Part shown: in pieces, positions 50,517 to 56,418 of the stretch
Numbering within the stretch: position 1 is the first letter of the stretch
Layout of the letters: each line of letters opens with the position of its first letter
Source of the DNA: Paenibacillus herberti
GTDB lineage: Bacteria > Bacillota > Bacilli > Paenibacillales > Paenibacillaceae
Assembly: GCF_002233675.1 (NCBI RefSeq)
Contig: NZ_NMUQ01000002.1
Coordinates: 367,852-431,851 of the forward strand
Reading direction: 5' to 3'
Length of the DNA stretch: 64,000 bases
The notes under the pieces: model-generated
Databases searched by the model: none
The model's input: only the letters and a program-made list of their open reading frames with translations
Told to the model about the DNA's origin: nothing
Position numbers and translations under genes: made by a program

Positions 50517-52610
50517 TTAGGAGAGTTCTTTGGGCAGCGACGCGGTGCGGATCACCTCTGTACCGGTGTAATAATGAGAGAGTATCTGGTAGGCGGTGCT
50601 GCCGCTTTGGGCCATTCCATCTGCTCCCCATTGGCTCATACCGACGCCATGGCCGTAGCCATAGGTCGTTATCTCAATCTCTTTTCCTGCTATTTTCCAA
50701 GTGAACTGAGTGGACGCCAGCCCCAGCTTCTCTCGCATCTGCCGCCCGGTGAACACCTTGCTTCCAGCGGTCATCTCGCGGATACGTCTACCGTCAGTCG
50801 TGTCTAGTACCCTTAAACTTCTAGGTGCGGTTTTACCACTAATGCCCAGCTTCTTATAGAAGGCTGCGAGACTCATCGTTGTCGTTTCTTTGAATTCAGG
50901 GCTAATCTTCTTGTCCCAGGGGCTGGCTACGCTGCGCAGATAGGGAAGGTTGGCGCCCCAGTAATCCTCGGAATTTTCTGTATACCCATTGCTGGTGCTG
51001 AAAAATAGAGCTTCGATCGGCTTGCCCTCATACGTGATAATCTGCCCCCTAGTCTCCTGTACCGCCGCGTTTAACTTGGCCAGGTTAGCTTCTCGGTCCT
51101 TGCCGCTCCAGCGGTCCAGTAGCTTGTCCAGTGGCACATACACCTGATGTGCCGTCGTATCCGTCACATCGGCGTTTTTAACTGGCATCCCGGAGCGGTC
51201 CCCCGAGGCTAGCCGCTTGACCAAATAGGTTCGCGCCGCGATCGCTTGCGCCTTCAGCGCCTCCGGCTCGAAGCTCACCGGCATCTCGCCGGCGATAACG
51301 CCGCGCACATACAGCTCCATGGGCACCTTTTCCACCCGCTTCTCGGCGGTCAAGTAGACACGAACGGTCATGCGGTCCAACGCTCCCGGCAGCGGGAGAG
51401 CAGTCTGTTTCTTGACGGTACGGCTTGAGGCGCCGCCTCCTGCGGGAGCTTTGGGGGAGCCGTCCGGCGGGATGTTGCCTCCTGCGGGAGCGGTGGGGGA
51501 GCCGTCCGGCAGGACGTTGCCTCCTGCGGGAGCGCTGGGGGAGGCGTCAGGCGGGACGTTGCCTCCTGCGGGAGCGGTAGGGGAGACGTCCGGCAGGAAG
51601 TTGCCGCCTGTAGGAGCGTAAGCGCCGCTTCCGGCGGGGGCTTTGGAGAAGCCTCCGACTCCGGTTTGGCCGCCTGTGGGCGGAGTTGAGCCAGTGGTGG
51701 CTCCACCGAAAGTGTCGCTCACATTTGCGTCTTTTGACGATGCTGTCCCCTTGTCGTTCGATCCCCCGCCGCCTGAGGGATTAATCCCATTCGCCCCGCC
51801 CGGATAGGCGGTCTCACTTCCCGGCGCTCCTCCCGCTGCGCCAAGCAGCGGCACCAGCGTTCCGCTAGAAGCTGCAAACATCGGCTGACGCTCCGCCCCC
51901 GGCGCCGAAGAGGCGCCGTATCCCGTCTGCTCGGTACTATATTGCTGCGCTTGCTCTTGCCGCTGCACGATTAAACCGGGGATAAGAATCGCCGCCGCCG
52001 TGAGAATACTGACCGCGGCCAGCGGCCATGGCTTAACTGGTAATGGCGGATTTTTTTGTCCGGCAGGTTTGTCCTGAGAAGCAATCCTTTTTTCCGAAAG
52101 ATGAGAATCTAATCTTCCCTCAGTAGCTACTGAGATTCGGCGTGGTTCTCTATTGTTGTTATCTCGCTGGCCCGTTTCCATCCGGTTTGACTCTTTACTA
52201 TTAATATCTTTTTGGCTCGACTCAATCCGTCCTAACTCTCTACTGTCAGAACCTCTCTGGCTCAATTCCATGCACCTTGACCCTTTACTATCAGCATCTC
52301 TCTGGCTCAATTCCATGCACCTTGACCCTTTACTATCAGCATCTCTCTGACTCAATTCCATGCACCTTGACCCTTTACTATCAGCATCTCTCTGGCTCAA
52401 TTCTACCGGACTCAGCTCTCTTCGCTCAACGCCTCTCTGACTTGATTGCACTCGCCTTGCCTCAATCCAGCCTGATCCCACCCGGTTCGCTTTGCTCGTG
52501 AGTGTGTCTCGCTTGCTGAGTTCGATATTTCCTGGTTTAAAAGAACTCCGTTCCACCCGTCTCCTCTTTGTTCCGCGGCTTACATTCCAATTCTCCAGTT
52601 TGTTTGCCAT
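50517..52610 (-). CDS. spoIID: Stage II sporulation protein D with long repetitive N-terminal extension
   Basis: A 697-residue protein whose C-terminal about 290 residues are the SpoIID/LytB lytic transglycosylase domain (VIAGEMPVSFEPEALKAQAIAARTYLV, FFSTSNGYTENSEDYWGANLPYLRSV, GYGHGVGMSQWGADGMAQSG, ILSHYYTGTEV). It degrades septal peptidoglycan for engulfment. B. subtilis SpoIID is about 340 residues. The extra part comprises a charged cytoplasmic region (about 1-200) with three 15-residue repeats, one membrane segment (about 204-224), and an extracytoplasmic Gly/Pro-rich linker with four 14-residue repeats. ATG at 52610 follows AAAGGGG; the frame open further upstream lacks a good site. Confidence 0.9.
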   Translation of the reverse strand: MANKLENWNVSRGTKRRRVERSSFKPGNIELSKRDTLTSKANRVGSGWIEARRVQSSQRGVERRELSPVELSQRDADSKGSRCMELSQRDADSKGSRCMELSQRDADSKGSRCMELSQRGSDSRELGRIESSQKDINSKESNRMETGQRDNNNREPRRISVATEGRLDSHLSEKRIASQDKPAGQKNPPLPVKPWPLAAVSILTAAAILIPGLIVQRQEQAQQYSTEQTGYGASSAPGAERQPMFAASSGTLVPLLGAAGGAPGSETAYPGGANGINPSGGGGSNDKGTASSKDANVSDTFGGATTGSTPPTGGQTGVGGFSKAPAGSGAYAPTGGNFLPDVSPTAPAGGNVPPDASPSAPAGGNVLPDGSPTAPAGGNIPPDGSPKAPAGGGASSRTVKKQTALPLPGALDRMTVRVYLTAEKRVEKVPMELYVRGVIAGEMPVSFEPEALKAQAIAARTYLVKRLASGDRSGMPVKNADVTDTTAHQVYVPLDKLLDRWSGKDREANLAKLNAAVQETRGQIITYEGKPIEALFFSTSNGYTENSEDYWGANLPYLRSVASPWDKKISPEFKETTTMSLAAFYKKLGISGKTAPRSLRVLDTTDGRRIREMTAGSKVFTGRQMREKLGLASTQFTWKIAGKEIEITTYGYGHGVGMSQWGADGMAQSGSTAYQILSHYYTGTEVIRTASLPKELS
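51436..51620. repeat. 42-bp tandem repeat in spoIID linker
   Basis: Four 42-bp units (51436-51477, 51478-51519, 51520-51561, 51562-51603) plus a partial fifth encode a 14-residue motif of the form N-x-x-P-D-x-S-P-x-A-P-A-G-G. They make a flexible Pro/Gly linker between the membrane segment and the catalytic domain. Confidence 0.92.
52253..52412. repeat. 45-bp tandem repeat in spoIID cytoplasmic extension
   Basis: Three almost identical 45-bp units (52253-52297, 52298-52342, 52343-52387) and a partial fourth encode ELSQRDADSKGSRCM. More diverged relatives flank them (SQRGSDSRELGRIES, SQKDINSKESNRMET), so the array is older and longer than the identical core. Confidence 0.93.
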
Positions 52611-52995
52611 CACTTGATCTTCCCCTTTCGCTCCGCCAACTGATAGGGCCGTAACTCTTTCGACCAGCCGCCCTAGCAGAGAGCTCATCTTCCATCTCGT
52701 CTTTATAGACTATGAGATTGGAAATATAGAATAGAACCCCGGATCAGCACAGGAAGAAGTAGATAGGATGAACAAAATCCCTTTTTGGAACATGACTTGC
52801 ACTAAGAGAATGAGGTTGTTTGCCTATTTTATAGCCTTATCACATCTAGCTTTTTCATCCACATTCCCTCTCAAACTGATTGCCCAACACGGCTAAAAAA
52901 AAGAATGCCCCTCATCATGTGAATGATGTCGTAGGCATTCCTAATTTTTAAGACTACTTGATGAAAAGGTGGATTCCCTCGCGGTTGCGCTTATT
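52611..52995. other. spoIID promoter region and terminator
   Basis: No gene is supported. The minus strand has a weak SigE-like candidate (-10 CATAGTCT near 52712) but no strong match. The hairpin at 52896-52950 is the main feature. ACTACTTG at 52954-52961 is a lone half of the stem found in the adjacent 51-bp array. Confidence 0.45.
52896..52950. terminator. Terminator bounding the hairpin array
   Basis: GAATGCC (52907-52913) pairs with GGCATTC (52934-52940), with inner CATCAT/ATGATG pairing. A run of eight A lies on the left and TTTTT on the right, so it can act on either strand. For minus-strand transcripts coming from the kinase gene through the array it would be the first clear stop. 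Confidence 0.75.
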
Positions 52996-54138
52996 CAAGT
53001 AGTCCAAACTACTTGCGCTTCACTTTTCCTCACGGTTACGCTCGTTCAAGTAGCAAAAGCTACTTGAGCATCTCTTTTCCTCGCGGTTATGCTCGTTCAA
53101 GTAGCAAAAGCTACTTGAGCATCTCTTTTTCTCGCGGTTACGCTCGTTCAAGTAGCAAAAGCTACTTGAGCATCTCTTTTCCTCGCGGTTACGCTCGTTC
53201 AAGTAGTCCAAACTACTTGCGCTTCACTTTTTCTCGCGGTTACGCTCGTTCAAGTAGCAAAAGCTACTTGAGCATCTCTTTTCCTCGCGGTTACGCTCGT
53301 TCAAGTAGTCCAAACTACTTGCGCTTCACTTTTTCTCGCGGTTACGCTCATGCAAGTAGTCCAAACTACTTGCGCGCCCCTTTTCCTCGCGGTTACGCTC
53401 GTTCAAGTAGCAAAAGCTACTTGAACATCTCTTTTCCTCGCGGTTACGCTCGTTCAAGTAGCAAAAGCTACTTGAACATCTCTTTTCCTCGCGGTTACGC
53501 TCGTTCAAGTAGCAAAAGCTACTTGAACATCTCTTTTCCTCGCGGTTACGCTCGTTCAAGTAGCAAAAGCTACTTGAGCATCTCTTTTCCTTGCGGTTAC
53601 GCTCGTTCAAGTAGTCCAAACTACTTGCGCGTCTCTTTTTCACGCGATTACGCTCGTTCAAGTAGTCCAAACTACTTGCGCGTCTCTTTTTCACGCGATT
53701 ACGCTCGTTCAAGTAGCAAAAGCTACTTGAGCATCTCTTTTCCTCGCGGTTACGCTCATGCAAGTAGCAAAAGCTACTTGAGCATCTCTTTTTCACGCGA
53801 TTACGCTCGTTCAAGTAGTCCAAACTACTTGCGCGTCTCTTTTCCTCGCGGTTACGCTCGTTCAAGTAGTCCAAACTACTTGCGCGTCTCTTTTTCACGC
53901 GATTACGCTCGTTCAAGTAGTCCAAACTACTTGAGCGCCCCTTTTTCACGCGGTTACGCTCGTTCAAGTAGTCCAAACTACTTGAGCGGCCCTTTTTCAC
54001 GCGGTTACGCCCATTCAAGTAGTCCAAACTACTTGAGCGCCACTTTTTCACGCGGTTACGCTTGTTCAAGTAGCAAAAGCTACTTGAGCACTCCGTTCCA
54101 CTCGCGCTTGCCCCGCTTCAAGTAGCAAAGACTACTTG
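52996..54138. repeat. 51-bp tandem array of 23 stem-loops
   Basis: Twenty-two hairpins start at exact 51-bp steps from 52996 to 54067, with no indel. A diverged 23rd starts at 54119. Each 20-nt hairpin has a 7-bp constant stem CAAGTAG/CTACTTG and one of two centres: CAAAAG (units 2-4, 6, 9-12, 15, 16, 22) or TCCAAA (units 1, 5, 7, 8, 13, 14, 17-21), eleven of each. The closing pair changes from C-G to T-A with both sides altered. The 31-nt spacers (core CGCGGTTACGCTCGTT) also vary in step with the hairpin type; units 9-11 are identical. Because 51 is divisible by 3 and lacks stops, long frames are open on both strands, but none has a ribosome binding site. Confidence 0.95.
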
Positions 54139-54197
54139 AGCGCTCCTTCCACGCGCGGTTCGAGCCACTTCCGCTGTACCCAGCGAGTAGAACCCAC

Positions 54198-55706
54198 TCA
54201 GCTCTCCGTTGCCGCATCCGCATTCGCCCCAGGCCGAGCCTGCTGAAGGCAAAAACGGAACGAGCTACCCCGTCCGGGGTCGCTCTTCACTTCAATGCGC
54301 GAGCCATGAGCGTCAAGAATATGCTTGACGATTGATAGGCCAATTCCGGTACCGCCGTGGCCGCCTCGGGATTCGTCGCTTTTATAGAAACGCTCCCAGA
54401 TCCGCCGCGTTTGCTCTTCTGACATACCGATTCCCTCGTCCCGCACGGTGACACAGGCCGCATCAGTACGGCGCTCCAGTGTGACGTAGATGGTGGAGCC
54501 ATTCGGCGAGAAAGCCATCGCGTTTTGCAGCAAATTGATCATAACCTGCTCCAAACGATGAGGATCACCAACAACAAGAATCTTCACTTCAGCGGAAGGT
54601 AGCAGAACTCCGTCCGGTTCATGCTGCTTTTCGACGGGTAAGCCGATGATTTCATAACGGACAGCATGATGCTCAAAGGTAGACTCCATACGCGACAGCA
54701 GCATACGAATCATTTCGGCCAAATCGAACTCCGACGGATGCACGTCGAATTGGCCAGCCTCGATTTTGGACATGTCCAGCAGATCATCCACGAGCTTCAT
54801 CAGCCGCATCGTCTGATCCTGCGTGATACGCAGGTATCGTTCCGCTTTCTCGCGCGGCACGGTGCCGTCGAGAATTGCCTCTATATACCCGTGGATAGAA
54901 GTCAGCGGAGAGCGCAAATCATGCGATACATTAGCCAAAAAGTCCCGCCGCATCTGCTCCAGCGCTCCAAGATCGGCTGCCATCCGATTCAGCGATCGGG
55001 CCAGCTGGCCGAGCTCGTCAGGAGAACGGTCGATAATTTGACTGTCGAACTGGCCTTTAGCAAAATTATCTGCTCCCTTGCTCATACGCCGGATACGAGC
55101 CGTCATATACCGTGAGAACATCCAGGAAAAAACGACGGATACGGCGAGAGCGCTCGCTATCGCAAGCCAGCTCAGATTTTGCCAACGGCGGAAATCACGC
55201 TGCACACCGGTGGACAGCGAGACGACGTATCGGTCAATGGATGGAGCGTACTGGGAGCTGACAATCCATTTGCCCGAAGCATTTTCGATCAGATCCGAGC
55301 TCGGCTCCACACTTATACTTAAATTAGCTGAGCTAATAAGCTCACGAATTTCCTGCTCCGGCAGCGGCACTTGCCCGACTTGCATATATCGACCGCGACG
55401 GTCAATGATCAGGAAAGTTTTCATCTGCGGTGGCACGAGAAGCTGCAGGGCCGTTCGAATCGAGGCATCGCTCCATCCGTCCTGCGCAGCCGTTTCCAGC
55501 AATGTGATCGTCCGCCGCAATTCAGCGCCTTCCATACCTTGCCGACGCTCAAGCATGTCGCGACCCACGAGCTGGGAGGAAATTAGATTGTAGACAAGGA
55601 AGGTTACAACCAAAATCGATAGAGAAATGAGCAACAGCTTGGCAAAAATGCTATTCAGCCCCAGCCGGACCAGCAATCGACTTGTAGCTACTATGGCTTT
55701 TTTCAC
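54198..55706 (-). CDS. Two-component sensor histidine kinase
   Basis: A 502-residue membrane kinase. Two membrane segments (about 16-42 and 181-201) bracket an extracytoplasmic sensor domain of about 140 residues. HAMP, HisKA with SHDLRSPLTSIHGYIEAIL (His about 268) and HATPase follow, with NLLQNAMAFSP, VRDEGIGMSEEQ and GTGIGLSIVKHILDAHG. The frame extends 16 codons upstream into the regulator gene, but GTG at 55706 lies 8 nt after GAGGAG and is preferred. It is the last gene of the adaptor-ATPase-permease-regulator-kinase operon and probably senses what the transporter handles. The 51-bp hairpin array begins 60 bp after its stop. Confidence 0.92.
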   Translation of the reverse strand: MKKAIVATSRLLVRLGLNSIFAKLLLISLSILVVTFLVYNLISSQLVGRDMLERRQGMEGAELRRTITLLETAAQDGWSDASIRTALQLLVPPQMKTFLIIDRRGRYMQVGQVPLPEQEIRELISSANLSISVEPSSDLIENASGKWIVSSQYAPSIDRYVVSLSTGVQRDFRRWQNLSWLAIASALAVSVVFSWMFSRYMTARIRRMSKGADNFAKGQFDSQIIDRSPDELGQLARSLNRMAADLGALEQMRRDFLANVSHDLRSPLTSIHGYIEAILDGTVPREKAERYLRITQDQTMRLMKLVDDLLDMSKIEAGQFDVHPSEFDLAEMIRMLLSRMESTFEHHAVRYEIIGLPVEKQHEPDGVLLPSAEVKILVVGDPHRLEQVMINLLQNAMAFSPNGSTIYVTLERRTDAACVTVRDEGIGMSEEQTRRIWERFYKSDESRGGHGGTGIGLSIVKHILDAHGSRIEVKSDPGRGSSFRFCLQQARPGANADAATES

Positions 55707-55734
55707 TCTTATGGCTCCTCTGGTTGCCTTCGGC

Positions 55735-56418
55735 TCATAAATCCACAACCTCAAACCGATAACCTACGCCGCGCACCGTCCCGATACGCCAGGCCGGATG
55801 CTCGCCAAGTCGGTCCCGAATCCGCTTAATATGGACATCCACCGTGTTGGAGTCTCCAAAATAGTCCATCCCCCAGATTCCCTGCAACAGCTCCTCACGG
55901 GTAAACACTTTACCAGGCCGGGAGGCGAGCCGATAAAGCAGCTCGACCTCCTTCGGGGCGCAGCCGACATTCTGACCGCGCACACTCACTCGATATTCCG
56001 TCACATCCACGATCAAGTCCGGGAATACCGCGTTTTCCTTATAAAGCGTCGGATGCGTCCGTTTCAGCACCGCCCGAATGCGGGCGATCAACTCCTTAGG
56101 ATCAAAGGGTTTGATCATATAATCATCCGCGCCTATCGAGAAACCTTTTAACCTATCGTAACCTTCCCCTTTGCCCGTAAGAAAGATGATCGGCACCGCA
56201 CTGGTCCGCCTAATCTCCTCACACACGCTCCATCCATCACGCTCCGGCATCATCACATCCAGCACGACTAGGTCGGGAATCTGCTCATAGAAGCAGCGCA
56301 GCCCGGAGGCTCCGTCATGAGCAATTGCATACTGGAAACCGTAGCGCTCCAAATACAGCTCCAGCAGATCGGTGATGAGCGGATCGTCTTCGATAAGGAG
56401 AATCATAGGTTTTTTCAT
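55735..56418 (-). CDS. OmpR-family response regulator
   Basis: A 227-residue regulator: receiver domain with acidic pair EDD (about 10-12), phosphoacceptor in LVVLDVMMPERDG (Asp about 54) and Lys in YMIKPFDPKEL (about 103). The C-terminal winged helix has CAPKEVELLYRLASRPGKVFTREELL and NTVDVHIKRIRDRLG...GTVRGVGYRFE. It starts 26 bp after the permease gene and is followed 28 bp later by its kinase. Likely target: the upstream export operon itself. Confidence 0.94.
   Translation of the reverse strand: MKKPMILLIEDDPLITDLLELYLERYGFQYAIAHDGASGLRCFYEQIPDLVVLDVMMPERDGWSVCEEIRRTSAVPIIFLTGKGEGYDRLKGFSIGADDYMIKPFDPKELIARIRAVLKRTHPTLYKENAVFPDLIVDVTEYRVSVRGQNVGCAPKEVELLYRLASRPGKVFTREELLQGIWGMDYFGDSNTVDVHIKRIRDRLGEHPAWRIGTVRGVGYRFEVVDL

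Follow-up and report, generated by a model that had tools for sequence, protein, structure and literature searches.

Minisatellites of the MIRU-VNTR type form dispersed intergenic tandem arrays with stable loci and variable copy number, and iteron- or centromere-like arrays, such as plasmid partition sites, are helically phased repeated sites that are cooperatively bound. In the excerpts of the published accounts cited here, REPs are described as short extragenic palindromes present in hundreds of copies, clustered, species-specific and reported to bind protein (PMC2817692), REP/BIME elements as showing complementary change and having a cognate transposase (PMC2817692, PMC3733652), and the STAR-like elements of Staphylococcus as CRISPR-looking dispersed direct repeats in Firmicutes (PMC5294841). 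A literature search found no description of the arrays reported below by title or start of abstract among the matches listed.

We analysed a 64,000-nucleotide stretch of Paenibacillus herberti DNA, hereafter the window, in which Tandem Repeats Finder reported a repeat at 52977-54141 with a period of 51 bp and 22.8 copies. The array consists of 23 dyad cores of the form CAAGTAG-N6-CTACTTG (52996-54138), of which the first 22 are spaced by exactly 51 bp and the 23rd, diverged and with a CAAAGA centre (54119-54138), follows at +52 bp. The first 20-bp core (52996-53015) is of the TCCAAA type, and its outer 12 bases, CAAGTA/TACTTG, are the part that is constant genome-wide; the first 31-bp spacer (53016-53046) is array-specific and common to the array of the sister species at the same locus. 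Centres are CAAAAG in 11 units, TCCAAA in 11 and CAAAGA in one, the first bases of the spacer track the centre type of the unit, and units 9-11 (53404, 53455 and 53506) are mutually identical. The array is thus real as the initial annotation had described it, with 22 strictly spaced units and a diverged 23rd, and its account of the two centre types, the spacer starts and the identical units holds.

On the minus strand, the array is placed between the stop codon of a sensor histidine kinase gene (54198-55754, minus strand), whose 3' end is 60 bp off the array, and a terminator-like hairpin, GAATGCC..GGCATTC followed by a T-run (52895-52940, minus strand), which was read from the sequence and not reported by our strict terminator script. 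A response regulator gene (55735-56418, minus strand) lies upstream of the kinase gene, and spoIID (stage II sporulation protein D; 50517-52688, minus strand) has its 5' end 308 bp off the array. A lone half-site CTACTTG (52954-52960) at the spoIID-side edge of the array is probably a decayed unit. The spoIID frame carries 45-bp and 42-bp tandem repeats of its own (window 52241-52403 and 51435-51618), which constitute an expanded N-terminal part of SpoIID.

The initial annotation overlooked that the window array belongs to a set of 25 that we located across the genome, and that the period is kept without the spacer sequence. In the 5.41-Mb genome to which the window belongs (G000), the exact stem pattern CAAGTAG-N6-CTACTTG occurs 211 times and its reversed control never, which rules out chance. 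The shorter pattern CAAGTA-N8-TACTTG has 602 matches in G000 and 419 in the sister species (G004), with a reversed control of 0 in both, and was absent from the other six of the eight genus members searched (reversed control up to 2 there). We located 400 of the 602 G000 cores in 25 arrays of 2-31 cores each. Copy numbers in G000 are inexact because runs of N interrupt arrays: a 1009-base run may split a single array into what are counted here as two of the 25, and seven further arrays contain shorter ones. All 25 located arrays are intergenic according to a simple in-house gene caller, which also called a low-scoring ORF that spans the L060 array and a second ORF within the L062 array. The arrays lie at a median of 115 bp from a gene 3' end and 235 bp from a 5' end. 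One of 24 array-bearing intergenic regions is divergent, compared with 15 of 80 others, a non-significant difference (p 0.11), and the idea that they avoid divergent promoters was dropped. No isolated core occurs among the 400 located, a set built from array matches, so no ordinary operator use is visible. We read the ORFs within 3 kb of the arrays at 11 loci and compared eight of the encoded proteins with Pfam; no gene common to array flanks was seen except PHP (G342 and G356).

Compared with the described systems, these arrays resemble the REP/BIME elements with RAYT of Enterobacteria, Pseudomonas and Stenotrophomonas in being short, extragenic, clustered and species-specific palindromes, and they are 20-40-bp extragenic palindromes in more than 100 copies (602 cores; 25 located arrays, all intergenic). 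They differ in their near-constant 51-52-bp period and lack of complementary changes, as pairing and covariation are not above shuffles. No cognate RAYT/Y1 transposase was found (PF01797 matches: one in G000, none in G004), and no GTAG/CGTC tag stands at the end of the palindrome; GTAG lies inside the left arm, where it is abolished in the 130 of 400 units with A at position 7. Membership in the REP/BIME class with RAYT was rejected on transposase, tag and complementary change. The single Y1 transposase-domain frame of G000 (153 aa) lies at G000:C7:560792-561154; the sister species has no match. Like MIRU-VNTR minisatellites, the arrays are dispersed and intergenic, with stable loci and variable copy number, but their palindromic core is far more conserved than the spacer and their period is kept where the spacer sequence differs. 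Like STAR-like elements, they are CRISPR-looking dispersed direct repeats in Firmicutes; the STAR signature T[G/A/T]TGTTG[G/T]GGCCC[C/A] had no match on either strand of 31 arrays, and STAR-like identity was rejected for all 31. Spacers repeat within arrays and are not unique, which rules out CRISPR, as the initial annotation had stated. Rfam gave no match up to E 1 in 52600-54400 (4227 models). The statement that the array matches no known repeat class holds for REP/BIME, CRISPR, STAR and Rfam. The arrays share with iteron- and centromere-like arrays the helical phasing of repeated sites, and we propose cooperative binding here too; they differ in being chromosomal, with 25 located and no candidate binding protein found. 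A phage origin was rejected, as the two-unit pattern had no match in viral contigs; the three-unit pattern had none in genome_contigs, a collection that may leave out G000 and its near kin.

We observed that the core letters and the spacing are kept while the remainder drifts, as seen in a low core diversity, a tight period and weakly related spacers. In each of the 19 arrays that have four or more 51-bp units, the 12 core bases are less diverse per base than the spacer (mean 0.0045 vs 0.150); units were recognised by their exact core, so core diversity is biased low, and an in-phase check, which counted about 12 in-phase units without the exact core, removes this bias only partly. Among 375 spacings between neighbouring located cores, 350 are 51-52 bp (51 bp, 307; 52 bp, 43; 50 bp, 3; other, 22), and of the 24 arrays that have at least three cores, 21 show a modal period of 51 and three one of 52. 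Spacer likeness between arrays exceeded the 99% shuffle level in 41 of 435 pairs from G000 and G004 (4.4 expected), and the strongest matches were mostly between same-locus pairs. The spacers of different arrays are thus only weakly related; because this weak similarity exists, also across genera, part of the constancy of the period may reflect common descent. B-DNA has 10.2-10.4 bp per turn, and 51-52 bp correspond on that assumption to about five turns. Hence, a dyad site repeats at a whole number of helical turns, as in phased operator- or iteron-like arrays.

Comparison with the sister species revealed that the flanks of five of the six G004 arrays examined match G000 loci, the window locus included (longest match per flank 85.5-94% identical); the sixth (L099) had no match among the G000 loci compared. 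At the window locus, the spacer of the G004 array is the same as in G000. The initial annotation had proposed that unit number be compared between strains, and across these relatives it differs strongly at common loci: 5 units in G004 vs 23 in G000, 12 vs 23, 8 vs 26 and 11 vs 28 at four of them, and 27 vs 12 plus an N run at a fifth. No such array was seen in the kinase-spoIID interval of five congeners (G036, G058, G068, G047 and G023); the stretch of G078 that was examined contained no kinase match. The G058 interval (L104, G058:C3:245000-263000) contains a CRISPR-like stretch and then N. At the site between the PHP and NFACT genes, where G000 has an array, G004 retains a remnant of about 1.3 units, which indicates loss rather than a new insertion in G000. 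The stretch beside this remnant (L316) reads like an alpha/beta hydrolase gene and was unseen in the G000 interval. Furthermore, among 30 PHP loci inspected from 118 genomes searched (G342 and G356 excluded), only that of G000 has an in-phase array. The loci thus tend to be retained, and it is the number of copies that fluctuates.

The initial annotation had held that an absence of homologous arrays from relatives would speak for a passive minisatellite, and had suggested a search of the family. Such arrays do exist in relatives. Relaxed triplets, defined as three consecutive CAAG-N12-CTTG sites with gaps of 30-32 bp, occur in 12 of 394 Paenibacillaceae genomes, from 4 of 19 genera, with a reversed control of 0. 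In an order-wide draw, triplets occurred in 10 of 392 genomes, and all 126 genomes from other families lacked them; two genomes gave one reversed match each. Because such reversed matches occur, G141, G191 and G366, with one or two triplets, are weaker by count alone. The patchy distribution indicates that the family is dispensable. The core differs between lineages. In G000, 444 of 454 relaxed triplets are CAAGTA, and among the matches listed the core is CAAGTA in G000 and G004, CAAGGC with a few deviating units in G068 (four loci) and G058 (three loci), CAAGGGTA in G342, G260 and G356, CAAGTGTA in G133, CAAGGGCA in G141 and at one G366 locus, and CAAGTGCA in G191. At the other G366 locus the cores are mixed and in part asymmetric, and G072 keeps an asymmetric core of the CAAGTAAC..TACCCTTG type at two loci. 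Both half-sites have changed together in most lineages, as a homodimer site or a hairpin would, and the asymmetric G072 core favours separate half-sites. With two G000 arrays, the G342 spacers gave in-register alignments that beat every shuffle, and those of G356, G133 and G366 also gave matches of this sort; G058 and G068 spacers were not above the 99.9% shuffle level. The G342 array lies between PHP and NFACT genes, the same pair that flanks a G000 array, and the G356 array is placed after a PHP gene. These alignments support common descent for part of the family; for the remainder it rests on core and period.

The spacing also occurs without the CAAG core. We sampled tandem arrays in stretches taken at regular steps, with one G004 stretch placed off a known array, from 395 kb of G004, 400 kb of G068, 197 kb of G047, 200 kb of G078 and 95-100 kb of each of four genomes that belong to three other genera; another 17 genomes of the family contributed 340 kb in all. 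A period of 51 or 52 bp was found in 15 of 31 non-coding arrays and in 0 of 27 coding ones (Fisher p 1.1e-5, a value that ignores that eight of the 15 come from one genome); the coding/non-coding split is heuristic, two of 13 arrays inspected overlapping the end of a called gene. These 15 arrays come from G068 (8), G047 (3), G004 (2), G053 (1) and G087 (1), and none was found in the sampled stretches of G078, G222, G184 or the 17 further family genomes. The single 51-bp non-coding arrays of G053 (L257:15519-15951) and G087 (L266:18828-19254), of about eight units each, are from two other genera, and their dyads were not above shuffles. Dyads beat at least 38 of 40 shuffles in seven of the 15 arrays and in six of the 16 other non-coding arrays, so outside the CAAG family dyads do not mark the 51/52-bp class. 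Among the dyads other than CAAG, GAGTTGC..GCAACTC stands out most clearly and is present in three G068 arrays (L202 and L206, with a variant in L201); weaker ones are TGAAGG..CCTTCA (G068: L201 and L214) and TAAGGC..GCCTTA (G047: L237), and the dyad arms vary in some G068 arrays. These G068 and G047 arrays may be sister systems that share the spacing. Outside the CAAG family, the case for dyad-binding arrays is thinner.

The initial annotation had read the cores as stem-loops in which the eighth pair covaries, from C-G to T-A. This change amounts to one difference that separates two homogenised types of unit, and genome-wide we observed no compensatory excess at pair 7/14 or pair 8/13, either among 60 distinct cores or among 400 units. 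The six outer pairs are invariant in this set and therefore uninformative on pairing. All 400 units have a purine at position 7 (G 270, A 130) and all but one have a pyrimidine at position 14 (C 220, T 179, A 1), and Watson-Crick pairs at 7/14 number 186 vs 206.7 expected from independent columns, somewhat below chance. At 8/13 (CG 223, TG 78, CA 55, TC 18, TA 17, GA 7, AG 1, GG 1), Watson-Crick pairs number 240 of 400 vs 233.3 expected from independent columns. In the 60 distinct cores, 94.6% of cells pair vs 95.1% in shuffles, with a covariation score of 0.104 vs 0.117. A purine and a pyrimidine that are fixed without a Watson-Crick excess suggest two separate half-sites rather than a stem.

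These observations bear directly on whether the arrays act as RNA, being transcribed, often in 3' untranslated regions, with stem-loops that would stabilise, process or terminate mRNA. Such a role would agree with the position of the window array between the kinase stop codon and the terminator-like hairpin, with the closeness of arrays to gene 3' ends, with the one-strand arrangement of the G133 array between an NAD_binding_7 gene and a porphobilinogen deaminase gene, and with the four two-unit RNA folds computed on both strands (z -2.1 to -3.5), values that are also expected from an inverted repeat. However, besides the lack of compensatory excess, the sense-strand preference over 16 codirectional arrays, tested on the presumed sense strand, was not significant (G.U exceeded A.C in 10, the reverse held in 5, one tie; p 0.30), full pairing of the asymmetric G072 core is impossible beyond CAAG/CTTG, and the tight 51-52-bp period has no obvious RNA reason. 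Nor is an array always found between a stop codon and a terminator: true in the window, this is no general rule, as the strict script, which missed the window's own terminator and found none at most loci, placed one ahead of the array, as read along the adjacent gene, at four loci (122345, 1128568, 1149854 and 701041) and after it at one (1703142). On the pairing, covariation and strand tests, we rejected an RNA stem-loop with covariation as the main reading, and we consider an RNA element in any form very unlikely. Of the structured RNA or DNA element that the initial annotation had proposed, the RNA half is unsupported and a protein-binding DNA array is the best-supported option. That the repeat encodes protein is extremely unlikely: 51 bp is 17 codons and long frames (370 and 247 aa) run over the window array, both strands being open, but so are both strands of 71% of simulated random 51-bp repeats of the same composition. 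Other arrays have 52-bp periods and indels and the sole Pfam match of the two frames is below cut-off; on these grounds and the simulation, a coding repeat was rejected.

The variability of the arrays could instead mean that they are passive minisatellites, in which a short inverted repeat provokes slippage or unequal exchange, the arrays are homogenised and unbound, and the core is constant as the hairpin that signals instability. The strong copy-number differences at loci common to the two species, the near-complete loss at one G004 locus, the identity of adjacent units and the lack of the arrays in most relatives would all follow. A hairpin alone, however, needs neither 12 identical letters at 25 arrays nor a 51-52-bp period among weakly related spacers, and the pairs adjoining the arms are not kept complementary; we regard passivity as rather unlikely. 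Spread by a transposase or nickase that recognises and amplifies the core, as a non-autonomous element of the REP/BIME type, would account for dispersed, extragenic, lineage-specific palindromes in hundreds of copies, as REPs are in the excerpted description (PMC2817692). This explanation seems distinctly unlikely to us, as the 419 cores of G004 are accompanied by no PF01797 match at E 0.001, the one match in G000 has no located array within 80 kb, and five of six G004 arrays stand at loci common to G000, so that little recent movement is visible. Moreover, the spacer length is near-constant and pairing is not preserved, unlike BIMEs as that excerpt describes them (PMC2817692).

Our best reading, a tentative one that we put a little short of an even chance, is that the cores are double-stranded sites for a dimer, arrayed in phase, with a specificity that shifts from one lineage to another. 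Sites read as double-stranded DNA by a dimer fit the invariant outer letters, the unpaired purine/pyrimidine choice, the lineage-wide cores and the five-turn spacing, and since some relatives keep the spacing with a different site, a DNA-binding system so far unrecognised is a better account than RNA hairpins. The family, the constraint on its core, its period, the lineage-specific cores and the stability of its loci are computational observations, from which we infer the binding protein, its cooperative binding on one face and the consequences. Each array unit would be a double-stranded DNA site whose 20-bp core, in this species CAAGTARY-N4-RYTACTTG for the majority of units, would present two inverted half-sites to a homodimeric sequence-specific DNA-binding protein. 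At 51-52 bp, near five turns of B-DNA, successive dimers would line up along one face of the helix, where cooperative binding could join them into a patch of 2-31 sites, and such patches are dispersed between genes, closer to 3' than to 5' ends. Unequal recombination would shift copy number and homogenise spacers, and selection, or the trans-acting protein itself, would maintain core and spacing; in other lineages, the specificity of the protein and the sites would have shifted together. Candidate roles are chromosome organisation, a local roadblock or the titration of a factor.

Even if the arrays are passive, they are a clear example of a repeat family that keeps its core and not its unit. 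If they are protein-bound, the roughly 600 near-identical phased sites in a single bacterial chromosome would form a multi-site DNA scaffold of unusual density and simplicity, and protein-DNA co-evolution could be tested directly on the changes that have arisen naturally, from species to species, in the letters being recognised. The rule that the spacing stays at 51-52 bp despite differing spacers is a strong and falsifiable prediction. A bolder proposal, speculative and in our judgement unlikely, is that some Paenibacillaceae have an unrecognised chromosome-scaffold system in which five-turn-phased 20-bp dyads are bound by a rapidly evolving dimeric protein and rewritten in concert. If this were true, G068 would possess, in its 52-bp GAGTTGC..GCAACTC arrays, a sister system under the same spacing rule, and shifts in specificity (CAAGTA, CAAGGC, CAAGGGTA, CAAGTGTA and others) would rewrite all the sites of a genome in concert, a process comparable to the turnover of eukaryotic satellites and centromere proteins.
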